A stretch of 64,000 nt of DNA from Aldrovandia affinis (lineage: Eukaryota > Chordata > Actinopteri > Notacanthiformes > Halosauridae), in the NCBI GenBank assembly GCA_029706075.1, contig JAINUG010000086.1, forward strand, positions 372,001 to 436,000. The letters are read 5' to 3'. Of the stretch, positions 3,460 through 59,187 are shown piece by piece. The position numbers and the translations under genes were made by a program. The notes beneath the pieces were generated by a model. It was not told where the DNA came from. It saw only the letters and a program-made list of their open reading frames with translations, and did not search any database. Position 1 is the first letter of the stretch, and each line of letters opens with the position of its first letter.

Positions 3460-3906
3460 TCAGTGGTAGTGGAGTCTGAAAAGCTGTGTTTTGAGTCTCT
3501 TGTGGAAGATCGAAAGTGATTCTGCGGTCCTGACCGATTGCGGAAGGTCAGAGAAGAGGCGAGACCGTGAGGAGCGGCTACCAGACACCCGGAGGGATGG
3601 GACAGTCAGTTTGCCAGAGGAGGCTGAGCGGAGGGGTCTGGCTGGGGTGTAGGGTGTAATAAGTGTCTGAAGGTAAGGGGGAGCAGTTCCTCTAGCCGCC
3701 TGAAAAGCAAGCACCAGTGATTTTAATCTGATGCGTGCTGTGATGGGGAGCCAGTGCAGAGAGGAGAGTAGAGGGGTGACATGGGTGAACTTGGGTTGAT
3801 TGAACACCAGACGTGTGGCAGCATTCTGGACTAGTTGCAATGGCTTGATGGCACAGGCAGGTAGGCCTGCCAGCAAGGAATTGCAGTAGTCCAAACGTGA
3901 GATCAC
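3460..3906 (-). pseudogene. L2 ORF2 C-terminal fragment
   Basis: Minus-strand frame of 148 codons containing SRLDYCNSLLAGLP and LQLVQNAATRLVF, then SLHWLPITARIRLK, the usual end of L2-type RT proteins, finishing with a short FKRLKTQLFRLHYH-like C-terminus. Equivalent sequence is found at 13799-14263 in the second L2 copy. No catalytic function remains on its own. Confidence 0.82.
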
Positions 3907-3980
3907 CAGGGCCTGGACCAGGAGTTGTCTGGCCTCTTGGGTGAGGAACGGTCAGATCCTCCGGATGTTGTGGGGGAGAA

Positions 3981-4424
3981 TCAGCAGGTCCGGGTGATCA
4001 CTGTGATGTGGCCCGAGAAGCACAGCTGGTCATCCAGGGTCACTCCAAGACTCCTAGCAGACTGGGGCAGAGACACTATGGAGCCTTCCACAGTGATTGA
4101 AGCATCAATCATCGGGGAGCCCTTCGCTGGGAGGAAGAGCAGCTCAGTCTTCCCCAGGTTCAGCCTCAGGTGGTGGGTGGACATCCAGGCAGAGATGTCA
4201 CCCAGGCATGCAAAGATCTGTGCTGGGACCTGCGGCTCAGATGGAGAGAAGGAGAGAAAGAGTTGAGTGTCATCAGCATAACAGTGGTAAGAAAAACCAT
4301 GAGCAGAGATAACAGAACCAAGTGACTTGGTGTACAGGGAAAATAGGACTGGGCCTAGCACCGAGCCTCGCGGGACTCCGGTAGAGAGGTTGTGGGGAGA
4401 GGAGAGGGATCCTCTCCAGGCCAC
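3981..4424 (-). pseudogene. L2 reverse transcriptase fragment (YADD box)
   Basis: A 147-codon minus-strand frame. It covers RT motifs around the palm domain: [16 protein letters not shown], then YADDTQLFL containing the two catalytic aspartates, then the LGDISAWMSTHHLRLNLGKT segment typical of L2/CR1-group LINEs. The continuing C-terminus is in another frame at 3460-3906. The protein would prime reverse transcription at the LINE's own 3' tail; in this copy it cannot be complete. The same region is present in the longer copy at 13.5-17.6 kb. Confidence 0.85.
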
Positions 4425-4460
4425 TTGGTTGGACCAGTCAGCTAGGTAGGACTTGAACTA

Positions 4461-13520: not shown

Positions 13521-13798
13521 TTTTTACATTTTACATTTTAAGCATTTAGCAGACGCTCTTATCCAGAGCGACTTACAAGATGTGCATTAATACATGGTAG
13601 GAACAATCATAGTATGCGCAAGAGATCAGTGCAGTAATACAGCAATAGACATCATTGCAGGTAGCTGCGTACCATACCTGTAACACTGAGAAGGAAAACA
13701 TAATTTTTTTATTTTTTATTAATTAAGTGGACTAAGCAGGGGTATACAGTGTAGAGCAAGTAGGCAGTGGTGATGACAATTAGCTAGATGTACAGAGT

Positions 13799-14263
13799 TC
13801 AGTGGTAGTGGAGTCTGAAAGTTTGAGTCTCTTGCAGAAGATCGCAAGTGATTCCGCGGTCCTGACTGATTGCGGAAGGTTGTTCCGCCAGCGAGGGGTC
13901 AGGACAGAGAAGAGACGAGACCGCGAGGAGCGGCTGCCAGGTGCCCGGAGGGATGGGGCAGTCAGTTTGCCAGAGGAGGCGGAGCAGAAGGGGTCTTGCT
14001 GGGGTGTAGGGAGTGATGAGTGACTGGAGGTATGGGGGAGCAGTACCTCTAGCCGCTTGAAAAGCAAGCACCAGTGATTTGAATCTGATGCATGCTGCGA
14101 TGGGGAGCCAGTGCAGAGAGGAGAGTACAGGGGTGACGTGGGTGAACTTCGGCTGGTTGAACACCAGCCGAGCGGCAGCATTCTGGACCAGTTGCAGTGG
14201 CTTGATGGCACAGGCTGGTAGGCCTGCCAGCAGGAAATTGCAGTAGTCCAGACATGAGATCAC
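13799..14263 (-). pseudogene. L2 ORF C-terminal fragment
   Basis: Minus-strand frame with ISCLDYCNFLLAGLP, LQLVQNAAARLVFNQP and SLHWLPIAACIRFK, the counterpart of 3460-3906 in the first L2 copy. A frame change in the second half moves the final LRLRYH-like end to another frame. Confidence 0.82.
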
Positions 14264-14470
14264 CAGGGCCTGAACCAGGAGTTGAGTGGCCTCTTGGGTG
14301 AGGAACGGTGGGAGGGAGGGAGAATCGGCAGGTCCGAGTGATCGCTGCGATGTGGCCCGAGAAGCACAGCTGGTTGTCCAGGGTCACTCCTAGACTCCTG
14401 GCAGACTGGGATGGAGACACTATGGAGCCTTCAACGGTGATTGATGCATCAATCATCGGGGAGTTCAGCT

Positions 14471-14897
14471 TCAGGTGGTGGGTGGACATCCATGTGGAGA
14501 TGTCAGCCCCTTCACTGGGAGGAAGAGCAGCTCTGCCTTCCCCAGGTTCAGCTTCAGGTGGTGGGTGGACATCCATGTGGAGATGTCAGCCAGGCATGCA
14601 GAGATCCATGCCGGGACCTGGGTCTCAGATGGAGAGAAGGAGAGAAAGAGTAGGCCTTGGGATAGGTAAGAGGGAGGCCTCCATACATTTTCATATAGGT
14701 CAAGTGTCATCGGCATAGTGATAGGAAAAACCGTGAGCAGAGATAACAGAACCAAGTGAGTTGGTGTACAGGGAGAATAGGACGGGGCCTAGCCCAGGTA
14801 AGGAAACTGGCATTGCGGAAAATGGAGATTGAGGCAGAGCAAGCTCAATCAGTCGGGTTGTGTCCACAGCCGCCTCCGGCACGTCCACGCCATTCAC
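14471..14897 (-). pseudogene. L2 RT YADD region, disrupted
   Basis: Minus-strand frames over this interval give [25 protein letters not shown], then LFLSFSPSETQVPAWISACL and STWMSTHHLKLNLGKAELLF. These match the first L2 copy at 3981-4424 but are split by a 50-bp insertion and a partial 86-bp duplication of the THHLKLN segment. Confidence 0.8.
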
Positions 14898-15095
14898 TGG
14901 ACTCTATGATGTGAGGAGACATGTGACTCTTCCTCCCTTTAATGTGGATACCTATTTTAGCACTTTGAAGCACTTCAATGGCCAGCATTTGGACAACATT
15001 GTTACAGTGCAAAATTTTCGGTAAAAGCCCAGGTTCTTGAGGACAGTTTGAATTATGAAACTGTGAAGGTTGCTGTGCTGCGGTTTATGAGGTGC
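14798..15095 (+). mobile_element. Gypsy gag (SCAN-like) fragment inside the L2 copy
   Basis: About 300 bp in the opposite orientation to the L2. Plus-strand translation resembles the gag region of fish Gmr1/Gypsy elements from which vertebrate SCAN domains derive: a [12 protein letters not shown]-like basic helix, a VRRHVTLPPFNVDTYF-like segment and a matrix/capsid-like stretch. It replaces nothing: L2 sequence continues on both sides (GGGGCCTAG before it, ACCGAGCC after it). No LTR accompanies it. It is a broken fossil of a retroelement gene. Confidence 0.55.
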
Positions 15096-15349
15096 GGAGG
15101 TGGACACCGAGCCCTGCGGGACTCTGGTAGAGAGGGTGTGGGAAGAGGAGAGGATCCTCTCCAGGCCACCTGGTAGGACCGGTCAGTCAGGTAGGACTCG
15201 AACCATGTCAATGCTGATCCAAAGATTCCCATCTCGACGAGAGATGAGAGCAGGATCAGGTGGTCCATGGTGTCGAATGCAGCTGACAGGTCGAGGAGGA
15301 GGAGGATGGAGCTGAGGGATTGGGACTTAGCCACGTGAAGAGCCTCCAT
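15053..15349 (-). pseudogene. L2 RT middle fragment
   Basis: The minus-strand frame contains LLLLDLSAAFDTMDH, the RT motif in which the first catalytic aspartate lies, then GIFGSALTWFESYLTDRSYQV, the following L2 segment. It continues RT from the frame ending at 15443 and is cut off by the gag-like insertion at 15095 and below. Confidence 0.85.
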
Positions 15350-15442
15350 GACCGCAAGGAGAGCAGTCTCTGTGGAGTGGCCTGCCTTGAAACCAGATTG
15401 GTTAGGATAAAGCAGGTGATTCTGTAGGAGATGAGCAGACAG

Positions 15443-16867
15443 TTAGTTATGGACAGCCCGTTCAAGTGTTTTGGAGAGGAATGGGAGGAGAGAGACAGGT
15501 CGGTAGTTTGAAATGACAGCAGGATTCAGAGAGGGTTTTTTGAGAAGGGGGACAACATGAGTGCGTTTGAGGAAAGAGGGGACAGAGCCAGAGGAAAGAG
15601 AGGAGTTAATGACATTGGAGACAAAGGGGAGGATGTCCATAGCAATGGACTGGAAGAGGGGGGAAGGAATGGGATCGAGAGGGCAGGTGGTGGGACGGTG
15701 GGAGTGAACAAGTTGAAGGATGTCTGAGTCAGGGAGGGGTGAGAAGGAGGACAGAGGGGTGAGAGGTTTAGGTAGCAAGATAGGTGAGGGAGAATTAGGT
15801 GAGGGAGAGGATGGGGGGAAGGAGTTGCGAATGTCATCGACCTTCTCATGAAAGAAGGATGCAAAGTCATCCACGGTTAGAGAGGAGGGGGGTGGGGGAG
15901 GAGGAGGGGTGAGGAGAGAGGAAAACGTAGAGTAGAGTTTTCGAGGGTTAGACACAGAAGATTGAATCTTGGAAAGGAAAAATGCAGACTTAGCAGAGGA
16001 GAGGTTAGAGGAAAAGGTAGCCAGGAGTGTGTGGAAATCAGTCAGAGCCACAGGGGATTTGGATTTTCTCCATTTCCTTTCTGCTGCTCGCAGTTTCAGT
16101 CGGTCAGCTCGAATGGAGTCAGTTAGCCAGGGGGTGGGGGGTCGGAGACGAGCAGGTTTAGTGGATAAAAGACAGAGTGAGCCAAAGGAGAAGGAGAGAG
16201 AGGATGATGGTGGATGATGCTTCCTCAGCAGGTAGCTGAGAGAAGGCATCAGTAGGGGGAAGGGAAGATAGAAAAGTAGCTGACAGGGCAGCGGGGGAGA
16301 GAGAGCGGAGGTTGCGACGGACAAGGACAGTGGGAGCAGGTGAAGATGGTTTAGGCACAGAGGGGAGGGGGAGGGAAAAAGACAGAAAGCAGTGGTCGGA
16401 CACATGTAGAGGAGATACCGTACTGTTGGGTGAGGTGCAGTTCCTAGTGAAGACCAGGTCCAGTTCCAGTTGGTTACCAGCCTTGTGGGTGGATGGGGAT
16501 TCAGCCACGGTGAAGTCGGTGAAGACTGAAGCAGGGGGAGAAATGTAGAGGACTGAGGGGTGTCCAGCAGCAGGTTGAAGTCACCGAGGAGTAAGACGGG
16601 AGTGCCATCCTCAGGGAAACTCCCCAGTGGACCTGGTGGGCGATAAAGAACAATGATGTGCAGTTTACATGGAACAGTGACCATGAAAGCATGAAATTCA
16701 AAGGAGGAGGGTGAGAAGTGAGGAAGAGGAACAATACCAAATCTCCACAGGGGGGAGATCAGTATACCTGGTCCTCCACCTCTACCTGTGGGTTGTGGAG
16801 TGTGTGAGAAGGTGTAGGCAGCGGAGAGGGCAGCAGGGGTGGTCGTGTTCTGCAGAGTGATCCACAT
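15443..16867 (-). pseudogene. L2 ORF: endonuclease C-part to RT motif 1-2
   Basis: The longest frame in the window, 474 codons. The first 100 residues are the APE-type endonuclease end: LHIIVLYRPPG and VLLLGDFN, where the D and N belong to the catalytic site of this nuclease family. A long serine/proline/leucine-rich linker follows, then the basic LRAAERKWRKSK segment and AKSAFFLSKIQSS. The RT domain begins at about residue 370 with CPLDPIPSPLFQ, VPSFLKRTHVVPLLKK and NYRPVSLLPFLSKTLERAV, which are L2-clade RT motifs. The rest of RT is in other frames at 14471-15349. The protein would nick DNA and reverse-transcribe LINE (and SINE) RNA; this copy is broken. Confidence 0.88.
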
Positions 16868-17697
16868 CTCCGTGAGCGCCAGGAACTGCAGGGAGAGTAG
16901 GGAGGGCCGAGATGAAATCGGCCTTTCGGACTGCAGCCTGGCAGTTCCATAATCCGCCTGCTACCACAACGTCGATACCGGAAGATCTAGGAGGGTGGAT
17001 GAGATTGGAGAGGTTTTGGGTGTGAGTAGAATCTCTCCTTCTAGGAAATCTAGAAGAGGAGACATGGACTGGAATAGGGAGGTAGCATGTAGTGTTAGAT
17101 GCAGAGGAAGAATAGGGAGATGCAAAACTATGATACTTACCATGCGGTGAGCACTCCCTAGCTGGCCTCCCTCGGTGGACTCCTGCAGTCCTGCTAAGTC
17201 TTCGTACGGGGAGGCTAGGACGGGGAGGCTGCCACAAAAAGCTGCCACTTTCCACAACTATGGTTACTTATATAGCTGAGTTGTGCTAGGCACTAAGTGG
17301 CGAATGCCAGCTGATAACAATAGACAACAATAAACTGGCTAACAGGCACCACCAACTACTCAGGGAACGCTCCACTACAGAGACGGACGTTTACACCTGA
17401 GACAATTAAACAGATTCTAAGAAGTTAACTGCTAATCAACTTCTGACAGAAAAACTTCTAAGCAGCGATTACCACTAAGACAGGAACACCAAACAGCTTA
17501 ATAGTTATAATTATAATGACTATGCAGTATCAACTAACACTTACCCTAGTGAAACGGATACAGAGCACAACCACTAAACTGAAAATCTAACGGCGGGTTA
17601 ACACACAGACTGTAGCACGCAACGAAACGGTTACCTACACAGTAAAATGCACAATGGATAAAACTTTCCACTTCTTATTCAGGACCTTATTCAGAGT

Positions 17698-21575: not shown

Positions 21576-21614
21576 ATTGTGGGCAACTAGACAAACTAAT
21601 TTGCTCATAGTGGT

Positions 21615-21769
21615 CCTCTGTGGCTCAGTTGGTAGAGCACAGCGTTGGCAACGCTTAGGTTGTGGGTTCAATCCCCACTGGGGCCACATATACTGAAAAA
21701 TGTATGCATTCACTACTGTAAGTCGCTTTGGATAAAAGTGTCTGCTAAATGACGTACATTATTATATTA
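21615..21769 (+). repeat. HpaI-type tRNA-Lys SINE, complete, with target duplication
   Basis: The head is CTCTGTGGCTCAGTTGGTAG (box A) through GTGGGTTCAATCCCC (box B). The middle is CATATACTGAAAAATGTATG. The tail is AAGTCGCTTTGGATAAAAGT and CTGCTAAATGACG, the same 3' end as the L2 LINEs. TCATAGTGGT is repeated on both sides (21605-21614 and 21770-21779). A tail shared with L2 explains how the LINE protein could move it. The tRNA-like head keeps polymerase III boxes but is not a tRNA gene: there is no proper anticodon and acceptor context. Confidence 0.92.
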
Positions 21770-22970: not shown

Positions 22971-22995
22971 TATATATATATATATATATATATAC
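22971..22995. repeat. (TA)n microsatellite
   Basis: About 12 TA units directly after the Tc1 terminus. Confidence 0.9.
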
Positions 22996-32080: not shown

Positions 32081-32091
32081 CATATATATAT

Positions 32092-32650
32092 TGTGGTGTC
32101 CCTTAGGGTGGGGCGACACTCACAGACCTTTGCAGAGGGCGTAGGCAGTTAAATAACCCAGAGGAGGCAGTAATATAAACGAAACAATGGTTTATTAACC
32201 AAATATTGACAAACATAAAAAGGTTGGGGTATTCAGGGGGAATTCAAAACTCACAGTCCACAATCCTTAACTTTGTCATTATCCGTAAACCGTAGTCCAA
32301 ATCCAATCCAGTTCCTCAATCCAGTCCAAAGGTTGATACACAGGCAGGGTCCTCAAACAATCCAATTCAAACACAAAAAGCAATCCCAAAAGCACTCTCC
32401 TCAACACTCTCAAAAACCACCAACCTACTCCTTCAACACACCAACCTGCTCCTCTCTAGTGTGATAGGAGTCAGTCGTTTAAATAGGCCTCCAAATGACC
32501 TTCAGCTGTCCGTAGTCCAAATTGCCTGACTTTTTTCAGGTGCGGGACTGCGGGCTGCTGGGAACCGTAGTTCTTCGGTTTCCTCCAGTGGCTCCCAAGA
32601 AATAAAGGGCCAGGCAGCCATTTTCCAGTGCAGCCCCTTGGGACGCCACA
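32092..32650 (-). mobile_element. solo LTR of the 37-40 kb element's family
   Basis: Reverse complement starts TGTGGCGTCCCAAGGGGCTG and ends AAGGGACACCACA, like the LTRs at 37456-38022 and 40133-40706 (TGTGGCAGCCCAAGG...GGGGACACCACA). Shared internal words include AATGGCTGCCTGGCC, GGAGGCCTATTTAAA, GAATTGGATTGTTTGAGGACC, TTTAATAAA-like and TATATTACTGCCTCCTCTG. It is 559 bp and diverged from the other two by perhaps a quarter of positions, hence older. It lies within a (TA)n tract on both sides (ATATAT at 32086-32091 and 32651-32656). No internal region remains. Confidence 0.85.
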
Positions 32651-32802
32651 ATATATACAGTATATATATAAATCTAAATGCATAGCATGACGTTTTTCAT
32701 GAGAGATAACCTAAAGTTCATATAGTAGTCTTAGCTAGTATTCGTTTGTTAGAGCTCCCTTGGATAAGACGTGTATCAATGATAATATCAATCATACTTT
32801 TC

Positions 32803-37428: not shown

Positions 37429-37429
<1 letters not shown>

Positions 37430-37455
<26 letters not shown>
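37430..37455. repeat. (TA)n microsatellite, left of LTR element
   Basis: About 13 TA units immediately before the 5' LTR. It is the presumed insertion site together with the TA tract at 40707-40742. Confidence 0.92.
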
Positions 37456-38022
37456 TGTGGCAGCCCAAGGGGCTGCACAAGGAAATGGCTGCCTGGCCTA
37501 CAACACATGGGAGCCAGGAAACACTACATTTCCCAGCAGGCCACAGTCACACCTGAACGGAGTCAAGCAAATGGGACTAACGAACAGCTGAAAGCCATGT
37601 GGAGGCCTACTTAAAGGGCTGATTCCAATCACACTTTGAAAGGAGTAGGAAAGTGTTTGTGAGTGTGTTGGAACCGTGAAGTCGATTGACTAGCTGGGAT
37701 TTAGAGAGGGATTTGGAAAGAGTGTTTTTATTTTTTATTGTTTGTGTATGAAATTGGATTGTTTGAGGACCCCCCTTTGGATTGACTATGGACTGGATTA
37801 CGGAATAGACCTGGATTACGGAACTGGATTTTGGACATTGACAACGAGTAGGATTTCGGACTTTGTGTGTTCGTATTCCCCTGAAGACCCCACCCTTTGT
37901 TTTGTGTTTGTCGAGATTAGTTTAATAAATTATCATTTTGTTTATATTACGGCCTCCTCTGTGTTCTTGAACTTGCCTATGCCCTCTGCAAGGTCCGTGT
38001 GTGTCCCCCTGGGGACACCACA
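37456..38022 (+). repeat. 5' LTR
   Basis: 567 bp. A TTTAATAAA signal lies at about 37919-37928, followed by TATATTACGGCCTCCTCTG. Ends with GGGGACACCACA. Family also seen as the solo LTR at 32092-32650. Confidence 0.9.
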
Positions 38023-38034
38023 TTATGGTGAAGA

Positions 38035-39438
38035 ATGCGGGCAGAGGGCATCACTTACAGGCAAGAGGAGGTAGTGCAGCAGGATTTGTTTTGGGGATTT
38101 TTGAAAGGAAAAGGCACGCTGATGGAAGGTGACTGGACAGTAGGCCCAGCCATGGAGACTTGGAACAAGGAGCAGGCCCAATTGGCACAAAGTGGAGCCC
38201 CGTGGTGTATATGCTGTATGGAGTATGGCCACCAACCCAGTGAGTGTTCCATGAGGGAAGAAGTGGGCTGGAAAGACCCAAAGGAAGGAAAGGTCAAAGA
38301 GAAGAATGGCCACCCCTGCTCTGTGGTGCCCCCTAGGGAAAAGAGGAAAAGGATCCCAGGTAGGCCACAAAAGCAGCATATAAATGAGGCAGATAAATTT
38401 GCTGTTTTGGAGACGGAGTTGGGAGAGGTGCAAGATGTAATAAAGGGCCAAGATGAAGTGATTCAGAAACTGGAGAAGTGTTGTCGGGACCAGAGGGAGG
38501 ACCTGGTGAAGAACCAGAGACGGGCGGCCATGGTGGAGGACCGATGGCGAGTCACCCTCTGGGAGGTCCAACAGCTAAAAGATGCCCAGACTGAGCTGTA
38601 CCGGCTGAAGGTGGAGTTGGGGACCTCGGAGGAGCGCCACCTGCTGGCAGTGGGGAAACTGCTGGAGGAGCACAGCAACTCCCTGAGAGTGCTGGGAATC
38701 ATGGCTGGGGAGCTGGAAAAGGAGAAGGCATCCCTTGGCAATGAAGTGAGGCGGATAGAGGCCCACAACCTGGCGCTGGAAGAAAAGGTGAGAAACCTAT
38801 CCAAGAAATTGAAGGAAAAGAACCGACAGTGTCTGGACATCCAGGAGTCCCAAGACCAGGCTAAAGAGGAATATGCCAGGGCCTTGGGGGATGTACAGAC
38901 CAGATTCGAGCAGAAGGAGGCGGAGCTAAGGAGAGCAACAGAGAACCATGCGTCCGAGGCGGAGCAACTCCAGAGCCAAGTGGAGCAAGAGCGTGAGGGA
39001 AGGCGGGAGCTACAGGCACAGTTGGAGCAGGTGAAGACCCTTGCTTTACAAAAAGAAGAAAAGATTTTTGCATTGCAGGAAATTCACCAAACTACCTCTG
39101 CAGCACTCCTGATTGAACAGAGGAAAAATGAAGAGCTCCCGGTTCTGAAAGACCAACTGCGTGCCTTAACCAGGAGGCTGGACCAAAAAGAAGCCCAGCA
39201 GCTGGCCACGGAGAACTATTTTTGTGAGACCTTAAAAATCCAAACCGAAACTCTGATTGATCTACAGGATCAACTGGAAAGGGTGAGTGAGGAATTGGAA
39301 GTTGTGACCCGTATGCCCGCTGTGAAAGATTTTAGTACCCAGGTGGAAATCTCGCAGCCAGTGGAGCTGACAGGAGATGATGACCAGATGGGGGAATCGA
39401 AGATGGTCCTCAGTCCCACTCAGCTGGCCAGACCTTGA
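38035..39438 (+). CDS. zinc-knuckle plus coiled-coil protein of the LTR element
   Basis: A 467-codon frame that starts 13 bases after the 5' LTR. Residues 58-71 form a CCHC knuckle (C58, C61, H66, C71; CICCMEYGHQPSEC), as found in nucleic-acid-binding Gag proteins. A basic stretch (EKRKRIPGRPQKQ, about residues 101-113) follows. From about residue 120 to 430 the sequence is a charged E/Q/L/K heptad-type coiled coil with many leucines, and the last 40 residues are acidic and polar. Similarity searches would tend to hit myosin, golgin or trichohyalin tails by composition. Placement between LTRs argues for an element-encoded, possibly Gag-like, assembly protein. The function is inferred from layout only. 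Confidence 0.6.
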   Translation: MRAEGITYRQEEVVQQDLFWGFLKGKGTLMEGDWTVGPAMETWNKEQAQLAQSGAPWCICCMEYGHQPSECSMREEVGWKDPKEGKVKEKNGHPCSVVPPREKRKRIPGRPQKQHINEADKFAVLETELGEVQDVIKGQDEVIQKLEKCCRDQREDLVKNQRRAAMVEDRWRVTLWEVQQLKDAQTELYRLKVELGTSEERHLLAVGKLLEEHSNSLRVLGIMAGELEKEKASLGNEVRRIEAHNLALEEKVRNLSKKLKEKNRQCLDIQESQDQAKEEYARALGDVQTRFEQKEAELRRATENHASEAEQLQSQVEQEREGRRELQAQLEQVKTLALQKEEKIFALQEIHQTTSAALLIEQRKNEELPVLKDQLRALTRRLDQKEAQQLATENYFCETLKIQTETLIDLQDQLERVSEELEVVTRMPAVKDFSTQVEISQPVELTGDDDQMGESKMVLSPTQLARP

Positions 39439-39928
39439 AAGTGAACTGGAGGAACAGCAGTTTGCGGAGGATGAGCTATGGTGGGACGATGGCATGGAGG
39501 AAAGCCTCTTGACGATGGCTGAGGCCAGGTGGAACACCCAACCCTCTCCTAAAGTGGTGAGTTCATTGCTTCCATTAAAGGGGAAAAGTCAGATAAGAGT
39601 AAGGGAGTTTAAAAGGACTCACCTGAAGAAAAATCAGAAACAAAATAGGCTGACTTGTAAAGGAAAGGACCGCGGGAAGCGTCTGTGGAAAGGAAATGCA
39701 AATGTGAAAAAGAAAGTGAAGAATAAATCTAACAGTCTTTCAAAGAGAATGTTTTCCCTGGTTGCTGAGCCTGACCACCTGGAAGAGGGGTGGAAGGGGC
39801 CTAGCAGAGGACCACAGAGTGAGAAGCTGCATCAAGTTCGCTGGAGGAGCCATGGAGGATTGGTGAAGACCAGAGCAGGAGCAGTGACCATTCCATCCTT
39901 GGAGCCCAGAGCAAGTACACACATATGA
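39377..39928 (+). CDS. second, basic ORF of the LTR element
   Basis: A 183-codon frame lying after and partly over the end of the long ORF. Its start is acidic (ESELEEQQFAEDELWWDDGM). The middle is strongly basic with many KGK, KKN and KKKVKNK clusters, compatible with nucleic-acid binding or nuclear localisation. No known domain is recognised. Whether it is made as a separate protein is unknown. It could simply be a remnant of coding sequence in this non-autonomous element. Confidence 0.35.
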   Translation: MMTRWGNRRWSSVPLSWPDLESELEEQQFAEDELWWDDGMEESLLTMAEARWNTQPSPKVVSSLLPLKGKSQIRVREFKRTHLKKNQKQNRLTCKGKDRGKRLWKGNANVKKKVKNKSNSLSKRMFSLVAEPDHLEEGWKGPSRGPQSEKLHQVRWRSHGGLVKTRAGAVTIPSLEPRASTHI

Positions 39929-40119
39929 CCACTTGAAGGTGGTCAAGGTGAGCAACTTGCATCACCCACTAATGTCTGCCAGATGTTTTTTCAGGCAAAT
40001 GGAGACTATGGAATCCGGACGTTTGACCCAGGGGGGACACTTCCTGAGGGGACCTGGAGATGGTGACCCTCCTGTTGGACGCTGGACATAGGCCGCTCAG
40101 CCCTCCCAAGGTCAGAGCT

Positions 40120-40130
40120 GAGGAGGAGGG
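40120..40130 (+). other. polypurine tract of the LTR element
   Basis: GAGGAGGAGGG two bases before the 3' LTR, the expected position for plus-strand primer. Confidence 0.7.
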
Positions 40131-40132
40131 TG

Positions 40133-40706
40133 TGTGGCAGCCCAAGGAAATTGCTGCCTGGCCTACAACACATGGGAGCCCTACACCAAACACTACATTT
40201 CCCAGCAGGCCACAGTCACACCTGAACAGAGTCAAGCAAATGGGACTAACGAACAGCTGAAGGCCATGTGGAGGCCTATTTAAAGGGCTGATTCCAATCA
40301 CACTTTGAAAGGAGTAGGAAAGTGTTTGTGAGTGTGTTGGAAAGTAGAGAACCGTGAAGTCAATTGACTAGCCGGGATTTAGAGAGGGATTTTGGAAAGA
40401 GTGTTTTTGTTTTAATTGTTTGTGTATGAAATTGGATTGTTTGAGGACCCCCCTTTGGATTGACTACGGATTGGATTACGGAATAGACCTGGATTACGGA
40501 ACTGGATTTTGGACATTGACAACGAGTAGGATTTCGGACTTTGTGTGTTTGTATTCCCCTGAAGACCCCACCCTTTGTTTTGTGTTTGTCGAGATTAGTT
40601 TAATAAATTATCATTTTGTTTATATTACTGCCTCCTCTGTGTTCTTGAACTTGCCTACGCCCTCTGCAAGGTCTGTGTGTGTCGCCCAACCCCTGGGGAC
40701 ACCACA
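40133..40706 (+). repeat. 3' LTR
   Basis: 574 bp, counterpart of 37456-38022. Carries the TTTAATAAA signal at about 40599-40608. It is followed by ATAT and a TATGTA/TA tract. Confidence 0.9.
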
Positions 40707-40742
40707 ATATGTATGTATGTGTATATATATATATATATATAT
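40707..40742. repeat. (TATG)n/(TA)n tract, right of LTR element
   Basis: ATATGTATGTATGTG then about 11 TA units; the other half of the presumed TA-rich target. Confidence 0.88.
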
Positions 40743-43700
40743 ACTACATTATACATATGGCTATAATGTAAACAAACCTACTGTACTTATTTGAAACAAG
40801 TCTTTTATTACCATACATTATTTTTTTTGTCCCCCATCTCTCTGCTGTGGATTAAAGTATTGCTTATACAAAAGGATGTTTGGAATGAATGCATATTGAA
40901 TTGAAAGGATGGTTAATTGGTTTTGCACTTGAGCAAACTTTTGACTTAATTAACAATTGCAGTGATACTGTGTCAAGCATTCCTGCTAAGGTTCATAAGG
41001 CACTAACCATGTCATGAAATTAAATCCTCCTACCCTAAGATAAATTGGGCTATGGGAGAAACATCCAATAGGTACTTAAGTCAATCCAACTTCATTCTCC
41101 AGGTGGAGGTTGTTGTTTTTAGGAATGTGGTTTCGGCTTAAATTTGCTTAGTGGTTCACAGGGCCCATTCTCATTTGTTTACTGTTAAAACTAACATACT
41201 TAAATTTGGTCCATATGCAAAGTCAATTCATATTAGTGCTCTTGTCCTGAGGAGCTATAAGATAGTTTTGGAGACCAAATTAGTACTCTGATTCAAAAGT
41301 ATCCTTTTGTGGTTCACTGGACTAAAGTCATACATTTCTTTTAGAGGACCGAACAACCACCTTTTCAACCCAAACCTGGCCAAACTGAAGCTGGGGATAC
41401 ATTACTGACTGCCCATTCAAGACAGCAGTGACCTTGTGGGGAGGTGAGGCAAGACTGTGACCAAATGACGACCACAATAAACTGAATTATGGATGATGTC
41501 TTTCAAAGAGACATAGGAGGCCAGAGGAAGACGTAAGGTCCCTATACAAGTGGTACTTCGGGCTGGAGACCGCAAACTAAAAATGCGGAAACTGGAAAGG
41601 AAATTCTAACTTTACCAAAAAATGCATTTTCTGCTTTTTCTTTAACGGGCTCCTCAATGATTTCATAAATTATGAAATAAAGGACTTCGTCTTTATTTTG
41701 TTCACTGTTGGCAATGTTTAAGAACTGTAGGGATCTTGTAACAAGGAAGGGGGAAGGGGGACAAGACAAATTCTACATCCATTAACCAAGAGAAATGAAC
41801 CCTATGTCTGTTAATCAAGTTCAATAAGGCATCAATTAACTAAAGCAATGCTGTGTTATACAATCCATTGCTTCTCAGCTGGTGTGCTGATCTAGGTGCA
41901 CCGGTTCCTCATCCTCAGGCTGGGCTTGAAAGACTGGGACCTTCTCATTTCCGTTAAGATATTGTAATCTGGCCTTTGGTTAGTAAAATGTAATTTCAAT
42001 TCTGGCTCTTGTCTTTACAATAGCTGCAATGAAATATGCCTGGGGCCCTGTTGCACGTTTTGGGTAAGGCATCATAAAGAAGGGTCTACAAGCATAGCCC
42101 CAGTCTCCAATCAAGAGTCCATCATAATAAACTATGAGACATACAGATCTCTGATCCCAGATGTTAGATCCCTACATAAAATAACCATTTAAGATACGAT
42201 TTATGACTAATAATAATGGCCAAGCCACTTCGCTTCAATGTTGCTAATGAGGCAGGTGGAGTTCATCTGAGAACGATTGAGGTCAGGTCATGGATGATGA
42301 AAAGTGTTATCAAATGCCTGGTGACCCCATACTACCAAACACTGGCATTGTATGATTGCATGTCATGAATATGTTTGCTAATTTGCATCAATTCCTGAAT
42401 TGTAATGTGTATGTTAATGTGAGTGTTATTGTCATATTTACCTGCAGATTAATGCACAAAATCCACCTCATTTTGTCCTGAAGGTGCCTTGACTGGAATC
42501 TGACTGCAGTCCACCAATGACGTTGTTAAGCTCTGCGTAAAAATGCACTTAATAAATGATAACGATGGAATTACCTATTCATTAAATTGCCAGTTAGTGC
42601 GTATAACCTTTTAAATGACATTTGACTGTATAAATGCCCTCTTTGATGGCCCTTTACCCTCACATGGCCCATAAATATGATGAACACATTAAGAAATCTC
42701 TTAAGTGGAGAAATGTGCCATTTAAAAAAATTGCAACCCTATGCACAGGGTCTGTGTCACTGTCAAAACACAGCTACGCCGGGTGGCATGGGCAATGTAC
42801 AATTCAGCATTCCCCTTTAAGTGAGTCATTGTGTAATGCATGGTTGTGATAGGTGAATGAGGTATCATGAAACCTAAAATGGTTGGAGCTACTGTATGCT
42901 ACCTATAACTCACAGTTTTGAACCAAAAAATGTGCTTTGTTGTGAAAAGCAAAACTTTTTGATTGGTTCAAACAAGTGATTTACAACTAATTGTAGCCCC
43001 ACTCATTTTTGTTGTCATGGTACCTCATTCTCCCATCATACCATTCCAGCCATGCTAATGAGAGAAATCTTAATAATAATTTGGACATGAGCAGTTCATG
43101 GTTGATTCACCTGGATACCCTCTCTCTAAAGGTTGTAATATATGCACTTTCAGACAGCCAAGCCTTAATGTGAGAGATGCCTCATAACTCAAAGTTGCTC
43201 CATCACTTTCCAGCGACTTCTGTCACTGTGTAATTACTGCACCACAGAGGAAGCACACAACGAGACTGATTAGAGAGACAGCCACAGAAGCAGCCAGCCA
43301 AACCTTAATTTTGTGCTAATTAAGGTTCCATTTGGCCCTGAAACCATGGTAAATCATCCATTTAAATTCTTAGGAACTGTTAGGACAGTCTTGCCTAAAA
43401 TAATGCATTTGTTGAATCAATACCAGATGTTCTATCTGTATTACCCAAAAGAGTTCATTAGCATGGTCATCTTCTGTTCTCTTTTCTTAATTGACATCCA
43501 TATCAAAAGAGTTTACTGCACCTGCCTGGGCTCTGTCTTGGTCACCGCCTGATGCTATTGTATTTATAACCTACAGAGAATTTGTATTTAGGAAGAAGGA
43601 ATGCCAGTTTAAACTACAATGCTTTTCCAGGAGGGAAACTAGGAATATGTGAGACATCGAAACCATTCAGTTCATACAGAAAAATGCTGTATAATTCAAG

Positions 43701-44475: not shown

Positions 44476-45770
44476 GCTATTTCAGTCACCCCAGATAAGG
44501 GGTGTCTACGGAGTGTATAAATAATGTATTGAAAAGCTTTAGCACTGCGTCTTTCCTGGGAAAGAGGCTGAAGTGGAATGATTTGCATAGCCTGATATCA
44601 TTGATCTGTCTCCTCTCCTTCACCTCACAGAGCAGGTCACACAGCAGCTGTGGATTGTATTGACTCTATAAAACAATTACTCCTGTTAAAACACATTGAT
44701 TGGTAGGGGGGGAATGATCACCTTTGGGGGAGAGGGGGTGGGGGTTCCATTAGGGCAGGTCATTGAGTTTGAGAATGGATGCTCTGTATTGTGGCAAAAA
44801 CAGTTTTCATTGACAATACAATTCTGCCATAATCTAAAAATAAAACTGCAATACAAGTCCACCTGTGCAAAGCAATGAAAACGATTAATGTACCCCTGCC
44901 CCTCCACACAATCCACCCCTGAAGCATAAAACATATGGTGAGCAAACCTATTAGGAATGAAGGGGTTACTTAACACATGTAAACCTCAGCTGTCTAATTT
45001 AATGTTTGTGAGAAGTGTAGCAGGTGTGTGCTGATGATTAGATCATCTTTAATTATGATTTTAATTAAATGTCCTATCTAATATCAGAGTCCATAACTCC
45101 TCAACAGTGGCTAGAGGATTAAAGAGATAACAAGCAACGTATACTGACAGTAGGAGCCAGAGAAAGAGGACCCTGAGAAAACTGTGGAAAGAAAAAAGGG
45201 TAAAAAAGAGTATAACCAATACCAATGGCTCTCAGACAAAAGAACACATTTTGTGGCTAAAGTCCAAGTGCTAAAAGAAGGCCTAAAGTGCTAAAAGGTG
45301 CCAGAAAAGAGGTTGAATCCCTTTTTCCACGCCATGACAATTAACAGCTTGCCTCCTATGCAAGACAGAAATAAATCTCTCTCTTTATTTTCAATTCTAT
45401 TCAATAGAACTTTATTGATCCCACATGGGGCAATTTAAAGAGCAAAGACCATGTTGACGCAAAAACAGGAACAGAAACACACCAATGATTCTGTTTAATC
45501 GCCAAAAATATGTATTTAGTTTGAAAACACGCACTCCTATTATGAGGCATCATCCCTGTCACTCCAAAGACAACAGTATTACTGCATCACAAAATGTGCA
45601 TTTGTGTGTGTGTGTGTGTGTGTATAAAGTACATTTTTTTGGTATATCTAAAGGGATTACCAGAGAAATGTTTCATCCCCCCAGGCAGATGAGAAATTGA
45701 TTTCATTTTTTCCATTGGGAAAAAATGTAATAGTTCTGTGTGAATGTCAACAGAATGATATGTAATTCGA
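44476..45770. other. non-coding stretch with small repeats
   Basis: AACTTTATTGATCCCACATG at 45405-45430 resembles the end of a common fish retroelement. (TG)n of about 20 bp lies at 45603-45623. A G-rich patch (GGGGGAGAGGGGGTGGGGG) lies at about 44726-44745. No gene is recognised. Confidence 0.4.
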
Positions 45771-46062
45771 CGCCACAGTAGAGTTGGTCTGGGGGTCTTT
45801 AAAATGTGTCCAAAATAACTCCCCGGGGTCTGGGAAGAGATGGAACTGCGATGGGTGGTCGGGTTGCGTTGGGGAGTCATGCTCTGTTGGGTACTGGTGA
45901 TCAACGGCTGCTCCCTGGCCCGCCACAGCAGAGTTGGTCTGGGGGTCTTTAAAATGTGTCCAAAATAACTCCCCGGGGTCTGGGAAGAGATGGAACTGCG
46001 ATGGGTGGTCGGGTTGCGTTGGGGAGTCATGCTCTGTTGGGTGCTGGTGATCAACGGCTGCT
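45771..46062. repeat. 150-bp tandem duplication
   Basis: Unit 1 starts CGCCACAGTAGAGTTGGTCT (45771); unit 2 starts CGCCACAGCAGAGTTGGTCT (45921). The period is 150 bp. The 142 shared bases differ at only two sites by eye (T/C near the start, A/G in GTACTGG/GTGCTGG). The duplication keeps one minus-strand frame open over 155 codons (45587-46054) because 150 is a multiple of three. The peptide TSTQQSMTPQRNPTTHRSSI repeats but matches no domain that I know. Confidence 0.92.
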
Positions 46063-46789
46063 GAGTCAGTCAGCTGGAAAGGTCAGCCATGTCCAAGAGA
46101 TGGTTAGGGTCTCGCCAGGAGGACCCAGGTTGACCTGTGAACCAAAAATAGCATATGTAGCTGGCACTGTTTTCTCACCAAATTCCCTCCATTCTTCAGT
46201 GATTTACGGTGATAGATACAGTCAATTCCAAAAAACAAGAAATTGTTAACTGGCCACAACATTACTTGTGACCGGTGAGTAAACCCTTAATTGTTTTGAT
46301 CAACTTAGACTGCCATGGAGTACTGGGGGTGGGGCGTTTGCCCCTCTGTGAGCGATTGACCAATCAAGCACATTCTATATATATTTATTGTACCTATCAT
46401 GTTAGCTTTGCTCTCCTGTCTTCCTGTCCATCCCAGTAATCCCGGTGATTCCCTTCCTGTTTGATCAGAGGTACATGTGTGTATGCTTCGCCTTATTAGT
46501 TACAATGTTTTATATTTAATTTATAGATCTTGTCAGAACAGTGAAGTTAGAATAAAAATGGTTTATTCTCTGAATGCAGAAGCTTTAACATGAAACGCCC
46601 TTGTTTAAAGTTCAGCACTCAGGGTTGAATACTGAACCCAAGTCGTATTACGTGTTAAAACCCCTCACTTATCCTACATGTAAACTATATTTATTTGATT
46701 GAATATAATAATCGCTACACAGGATACCAATTATCAATAAAAATCTCAAAATTCATTGATAGGCAGAGCAAACTGGTGGATCAACCTTC
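46063..46789. other. non-coding stretch, possibly retroelement-derived
   Basis: Contains AATAAAAATGG at about 46551 and TTCAATCAAATAAATATAG-like words on the minus strand. It lies between the tandem duplication and the LTR-like repeat. Could be interior of an old retroelement; not demonstrated. Confidence 0.3.
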
Positions 46790-58925: not shown

Positions 58926-59187
58926 AATATGTAATTAGGATTGCATTTTTAATATTTAGACTTGATATTTCAAACCTCATAAATATTGGAAAAAATATGT
59001 TTTGGGGGTTAAATGTGGGGAAAATGCATACTTCAGTACTGTATTTTACAGGCATTATAGCCACTTTATTGGGAAAATGTTGATATAACTGTGAATGGTT
59101 AGCTGAGTAGCCCTGACATTTTGATATTTATCTAATAAATATATAGCCATATATATATTAGATACATCCCTGAATGCTTTTACTCCT

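Follow-up and report, generated by a model that had tools for sequence, protein, structure and literature searches.

A compact LTR retrotransposon with a zinc-knuckle and coiled-coil gene and no recognisable pol in the fish Aldrovandia affinis

What kind of element is a long terminal repeat (LTR) retrotransposon whose interior holds a long coiled-coil gene and no recognisable pol? The question is raised by positions 37456-40706 of a 64,000-nucleotide stretch of the Aldrovandia affinis genome (GenBank assembly GCA_029706075.1, contig JAINUG010000086.1, positions 372,001 to 436,000 of the forward strand). The whole stretch is called the window here. The element was analysed for its terminal repeats, its priming signals, the coding content of its interior and the sites into which its family has inserted. 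With moderate confidence, it is read as a non-autonomous LTR retrotransposon, probably Ty3/gypsy-like and primed by tRNA-Ala, with a single Gag-like gene and no visible capsid domain.

Terminal repeats, priming and the search for pol

The element showed direct LTRs with TG...CA ends, a target-site duplication, a tRNA primer-binding site and a polypurine tract, which are the marks of an LTR retrotransposon. Its parts were located as follows.

37452-37455: left target-site duplication ATAT, the last four bases of a TA run (37429-37455)
37456-38022, plus strand: 5' LTR, 567 bases, with ends TGTGG...CCACA
37608-37615: TATA-like TACTTAAA in the 5' LTR
37924-37929: putative polyadenylation signal AATAAA in the 5' LTR
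37953-37989, plus strand: U5 side of a predicted U5-leader stem
38023-40132: interior, 2,110 bases
38026-38043, plus strand: primer-binding site, complementary at 17 of 18 bases to the tRNA-Ala(AGC) 3' end, CCA included
38041-38071, plus strand: leader side of the predicted U5-leader stem, within the first codons of the main open reading frame (ORF1)
40120-40130, plus strand: polypurine tract GAGGAGGAGGG, two bases 5' of the 3' LTR
40133-40706, plus strand: 3' LTR, 574 bases
40707-40710: right target-site duplication ATAT

The two LTRs were compared by global alignment, and 538 of the 554 aligned bases were identical (97.1%, indels aside). The differences comprised 10 transitions and 6 transversions, with a Kimura two-parameter (K2P) distance of 0.0295, and six indels of 12, 4, 9, 1, 1 and 6 bases. 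Identity was 94.8% in a MAFFT alignment that also included a solo LTR from the window, a lower value because gaps were less well placed; further comparisons over parts of the LTRs, or with gaps counted, gave 93-98%. Both the 3' LTR and the solo LTR had TATTTAAA at the TATA-like site, against TACTTAAA in the 5' LTR, and AATAAA was common to all three LTRs. Judged by sequence, the TATA-like motif may serve as promoter and AATAAA as polyadenylation signal. The first-pass annotation of this locus had described two LTRs about 97% alike, a purine tract, ATAT duplications and a 2.1-kb interior without a pol domain. All of these were recovered at the coordinates it gave, the identity applying outside the six indels and the absence of pol being judged by Pfam.

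The primer-binding site, TGGTGAAGAATGCGGGCA, starts three bases past the 5' LTR. In the available text of PMC8216470, a mouse reverse-transcription PCR primer gives the complement of the vertebrate tRNA-Ala(AGC) 3' end as TGGAGAATGCGGGCATCGAT, and the zebrafish northern probe for tRNA-Ala(AGC) quoted in the available text of PMC11574265 has the same start. The match was counted with the complement of the CCA end placed before TGGAGAATGCGGGCATCGAT. With 17 of 18 positions matching here and 13 of 18 in the runner-up 18-mer of the whole window (both strands), tRNA-Ala is very probably the primer of the element.

The predicted U5-leader stem encloses most of the primer-binding site between its strands and consists, by eye, of 11, 7 and 6 nested base pairs. 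Such U5-leader stems are known in retroviruses. The fold of 37945-38090 had an energy of -59.7 kcal/mol (z -2.8), and 2 of 200 shuffles were as stable. Most of the U5 side was conserved in both the 3' LTR and the solo LTR, whose pairing energies with the leader were -41.7 and -41.8 kcal/mol, against -42.9 kcal/mol for the U5 of the 5' LTR. A different purine-rich segment of the interior paired about as strongly with the pyrimidine-rich U5 (-42.0 vs -42.5 kcal/mol). The leader pairing energy was reached at 12 of 8,528 places in the window: seven in the reverse complements of the three LTRs, the leader itself and four elsewhere. Since other places pair about equally with U5, the stem is regarded as likely rather than proven.

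The interior was searched for pol with Pfam. No pol domain was recognised in ORF1, in the second long frame (ORF2) or in any of the 30 other stop-free interior frames of at least 40 residues on both strands (E 0.1). One DUF6010 match among the interior frames (E 0.074) was below the cut-off. Protease, reverse transcriptase, RNase H and integrase were thus not recognised at this locus, as in non-autonomous elements of the LARD (large retrotransposon derivative) or TR-GAG kind, and the earlier description as a non-autonomous element is supported here. Because no enzyme genes were recognisable, dependence on a full-length relative is probable.

The gene of the interior

The coding features of the interior are listed below.

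38035-39438, plus strand: ORF1, 467 residues, with an N-terminal CCHC knuckle, a basic stretch, a long coiled coil and an acidic end
38206-38247, plus strand: CCHC zinc knuckle CX2CX4HX4C, residues 58-71 (C58, C61, H66, C71)
38389-39312, plus strand: predicted coiled coil, residues about 119-426, with short breaks
39371-39928, plus strand: ORF2, in a different frame from ORF1 and open where ORF1 ends
39557-39766, plus strand: strongly basic stretch of ORF2, +21 in 70 residues (61-130), +22 at best

The stop-free run of ORF1 was 468 codons. When the interior was shuffled 1,000 times (first-order), the longest six-frame run had a median of 180 codons and never exceeded 409. The GC content of ORF1 by codon position was 0.62/0.34/0.62. 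The codon-position signal, measured in 180-base windows, was clear in the ORF1 frame up to about 39,400; it was 0.27-0.43 in the coiled-coil part, compared with 0.09-0.21 in the first 100 or so codons and 0.06-0.14 in ORF2.

The heptad pattern of residues 120-440 was scored by a purpose-built model with ad hoc weights. The score was 60.4, against 28.5 +/- 4.0 with a maximum of 40.3 in 500 shuffles of these residues. On an earlier window statistic the coiled coil scored 0.276, and none of 300 shuffles exceeded 0.194. NCBIfam yielded six weak matches, well under the cut-off, that fell on or across the coiled coil (SMC, Rad50, XopZ and others). These six and a Pfam match to Herpes_U59 (E 0.0027, below the cut-off), located likewise, were rejected as family assignments and ascribed to composition. 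The motif CX2CX4HX4C is that of a zinc knuckle. The combination of knuckle and coiled coil reported in the first-pass annotation was supported: its four knuckle residues were found, and the coiled coil was backed by the heptad statistics and the weak profile matches.

The frames of ORF1 and ORF2 were searched separately throughout. ORF1 had no Pfam family above the cut-off and no match at E 0.01 in a sequence search of the PDB. One weak PHROGs match (E 0.082, function unknown) was discarded and gave no family. No relative was confirmed for ORF1 in viral and prokaryotic contig collections, or for ORF2 in the viral contig collection, and these collections say little about a fish element. Seven viral-contig loci carried the exact primer-site pattern and were regarded as chance matches, because no LTR layout surrounded the site (one short repeat lay across it) and their long frames were phage-like by eye. 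Seven Rfam matches, all far below the gathering scores, were also set aside; six were microRNA-like and lay on the TA-rich flanks, and one, to a plant-virus element, lay across the 3' LTR end.

The start of ORF1 overlaps the primer-binding site, as had been expected from the first reading of the locus. Only 12 bases separate the end of the 5' LTR from the first ATG (38035), which falls within 38026-38043. From its context, the ATG at 38152 (codon 40) may be the true start instead. It lies upstream of the knuckle and would leave 18 residues before it. Its context is GCCATGG, which we judge to be better than that of 38035.

ORF1 had been called the only long product of the element, which was incomplete, given the second frame at 39371-39928. 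ORF2 is open for 185 codons. This length was reached in 5 of 2,000 shuffles of 39371-40132 (plus strand), and the particular frame of ORF2 stayed open in 2 of 5,000; for the whole interior in six frames, 185 codons are unremarkable (median 180). The basic charge of ORF2 was reached in 9 of 5,000 shuffles. From about 39,400 to about 39,880 the codon-position signal was weak yet best in the ORF2 frame. Since the length and charge of ORF2 were beyond chance and the signal was best in its frame, the gene was read as ORF1 followed by ORF2. The two are probably one gene, encoding a knuckle, a coiled coil and a basic tail, with one frame change in the 39371-39438 overlap. A programmed frameshift in this overlap was considered beside an ordinary mutation, and one copy cannot tell the two apart. 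Three of the six LTR indels were not multiples of three. By a hand calculation, a neutral 1.9 kb of equal age would be expected to contain about five frameshifts, and one was observed. This shortfall is a hint that the gene was maintained up to the time of insertion, although the LTR differences may not all postdate insertion.

Insertion sites and rival explanations

A further member of the LTR family and the TA-rich sites of the window are given below.

32092-32650, minus strand: 559-base solo LTR of the same family, flanked on both sides by ATAT and lying in TA-rich sequence
22971-22994, 32082-32091, 32661-32670, 37429-37455, 40722-40743 and 59149-59158: TA/AT runs of at least 10 bases

The identity of the solo LTR to the element LTRs was 72% by blastn, 75% by MAFFT and 85-87% when freely gapped. 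The family proposed in the first-pass annotation thus gained one further LTR member in the 64-kb window, while a second copy of the ORF was not seen there. The six TA/AT runs make up 0.16% of the window. Four of them adjoin or lie within 16 bases of the two insertions, two on each side, and belong to the same two target sites. ATAT was duplicated at both insertions, its exact length being uncertain within a TA repeat; outside the junctions, ATAT precedes 408 of 63,791 positions (0.6%). Although two insertions are few, the pattern of insertion into TA repeats is striking. Four-base target duplications are found in Ty3/gypsy elements and are not exclusive to them. In several Drosophila Ty3/gypsy clades, 4-base ATAT duplications are usual and ATAT targets preferred, according to the available text of PMC3276498.

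If the element is non-autonomous with a Gag-like gene, the protein would multimerise through its coiled coil and bind the element RNA through its knuckle and basic tail. The LTRs, the tRNA-Ala primer site and the purine tract would be retained as cis signals, and pol would be borrowed. Reverse transcriptase, RNase H and integrase would be supplied in trans by an autonomous relative, which would recognise the shared LTR ends, primer site and TA-rich targets. RNA binding, assembly, dependence on a helper and the superfamily are what we infer from the letters of this locus.

Several results weigh against this reading. Pfam returned no match to a Gag, capsid or zf-CCHC family. The lone knuckle of ORF1 lies at residues 58-71 of 467, on the N-terminal side and not at the C-terminus as in Gag, and together with a coiled coil of about 300 residues it breaks the usual Gag order, with no evident space left for a capsid. 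A simple test for a 3.5-residue period in the coiled coil was weak, its value being reached by 216 of 5,000 shuffles. ORF1 and ORF2 are split by a frame change in this copy, the signal of ORF2 is weak, and past about 39,880 a frame that is closed does equally well (0.16 at 39823). Four-base duplications fit ERV1 too. A single interior-bearing copy was seen, which is too few to demonstrate a family with this gene.

A one-off deletion is possible, though doubtful. The locus would then be an autonomous element in which ORF1 and ORF2 encode the usual product of the gag region and from which, in this copy, pol has disappeared between about 39930 and 40120. The single interior copy, the Gag-like features of the protein (knuckle and basic stretch) and the stop of ORF2 about 190 bases before the purine tract agree with such a loss. 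However, no pol remnant was found by Pfam in the frames tested, the knuckle is N-terminal and no capsid was matched.

It is improbable that the gene is a transduced host gene, that is, a coiled-coil gene captured by reverse transcription between the LTRs in place of gag-pol. The codon-position signal is stronger in the coiled coil than in the first 100 or so codons and ORF2, as if the coiled coil had a separate origin. Against this, no relative was found in Pfam or among solved structures, a weak point, as the search covered no dedicated collection of eukaryote proteins or genomes. The weak NCBIfam matches were to long coiled-coil proteins (SMC, Rad50) and are obtainable from any coiled coil. 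That the ORFs are low-complexity artefacts of a purine-rich interior open by chance is very hard to credit: purines indeed make up 64/59/67% of the three codon positions of ORF1, and two antisense frames, of 183 and 206 codons, are likewise open, but the length of ORF1 exceeded every shuffle, and its codon-position GC, its heptad pattern and the ORF2 shuffles also speak against an artefact.

Elsewhere in the window, the following features were observed; by eye, closely similar protein segments were common to the two fragments resembling long interspersed nuclear elements (LINEs). The character of these LINE fragments and of the tRNA-derived sequence at 21613-21760 suggests a ray-finned fish, in keeping with the stated source.

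3460-4457, minus strand: LINE-like fragment, with a reverse transcriptase match within 3981-4457 (Pfam RVT_1, E 7e-12)
13780-16960, minus strand: LINE-like fragment, with a weak endonuclease match within 15443-16960 (E 0.005, below the cut-off)
21613-21760, plus strand: tRNA-Ala(GGC) by ARAGORN, running on into AAGTCGCTTTGGATAAAAGTGTCTGCTAAATG, which we take to resemble the tail of a tRNA-derived fish short interspersed nuclear element (SINE)
45587-46069, minus strand: open frame in which about 50 residues (QPLITSTQQSMTPQRNPTTHRSS...) form two tandem copies, like a minisatellite

Comparison with known elements

In the titles and abstract beginnings covered by a literature search, no element of this layout was described, which is no proof of its absence from print. 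The non-autonomous element proposed here resembles LARD and TRIM (terminal-repeat retrotransposon in miniature) elements in its LTRs, primer site, purine tract and lack of pol. LARD and TRIM elements are not known to carry long ORFs, whereas this element has one. A TRIM element has also been reported from an animal (PMC3532108). Plant TR-GAG elements are non-autonomous LTR elements with only a gag-like gene, as here, but their Gag domain is recognisable and none was recognised in this element.

The Drosophila Ty3/gypsy elements 297, 412 and Transpac share the 4-base ATAT duplication and the palindromic AT-rich target (available text of PMC3276498). Unlike them, both insertions here were in TA repeats, and the element has no reverse transcriptase for placement. 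Bdelloid LTR elements with a captured ORF3 indicate that LTR elements can take up extra non-Gag ORFs; as described in the available text of PMC5408684, they retain gag and pol, and their captured ORFs are enzymes or envelope-like.

A bolder proposal, which we consider rather unlikely, is a vertebrate LTR family in which Gag has been replaced by an unrelated assembly protein with a knuckle, a 300-residue coil, a basic tail and perhaps a programmed frame change. Its start codon would lie in the tRNA-Ala site, and it would prefer TA microsatellites. If a coiled-coil RNA-binding protein does stand in for a capsid Gag, the family would show which part of Gag a retrotransposon parasite must keep. 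The present evidence is one locus.

The nearest described kind is the gag-only non-autonomous endogenous retroviruses of zebrafish, BHIKHARI-1 and BHIKHARI-2/crestin, likened here by description only (available text of PMC10996621). They too are LTR elements of fish that lack pol and have a single long gene, whose product contains a coiled coil; complementation in trans is presumed, and Bik-1 also has solo LTRs. The 617-residue Bik-1 Gag has its coiled coil at the N-terminus and a glycine-rich patch at the C-terminus, and is predicted to contain a capsid domain. The product of the present element departs from that description: its knuckle precedes a long central coil, its tail is rich in lysine and a capsid was not detected in it. 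Embryonic expression of BHIKHARI and crestin has been described in zebrafish (available text of PMC9341512), and the Gag proteins of the zebrafish gag-only elements were reported in the available text of PMC10996621 to be necessary for development. Therefore, the gag-like products of such elements are worth cataloguing.

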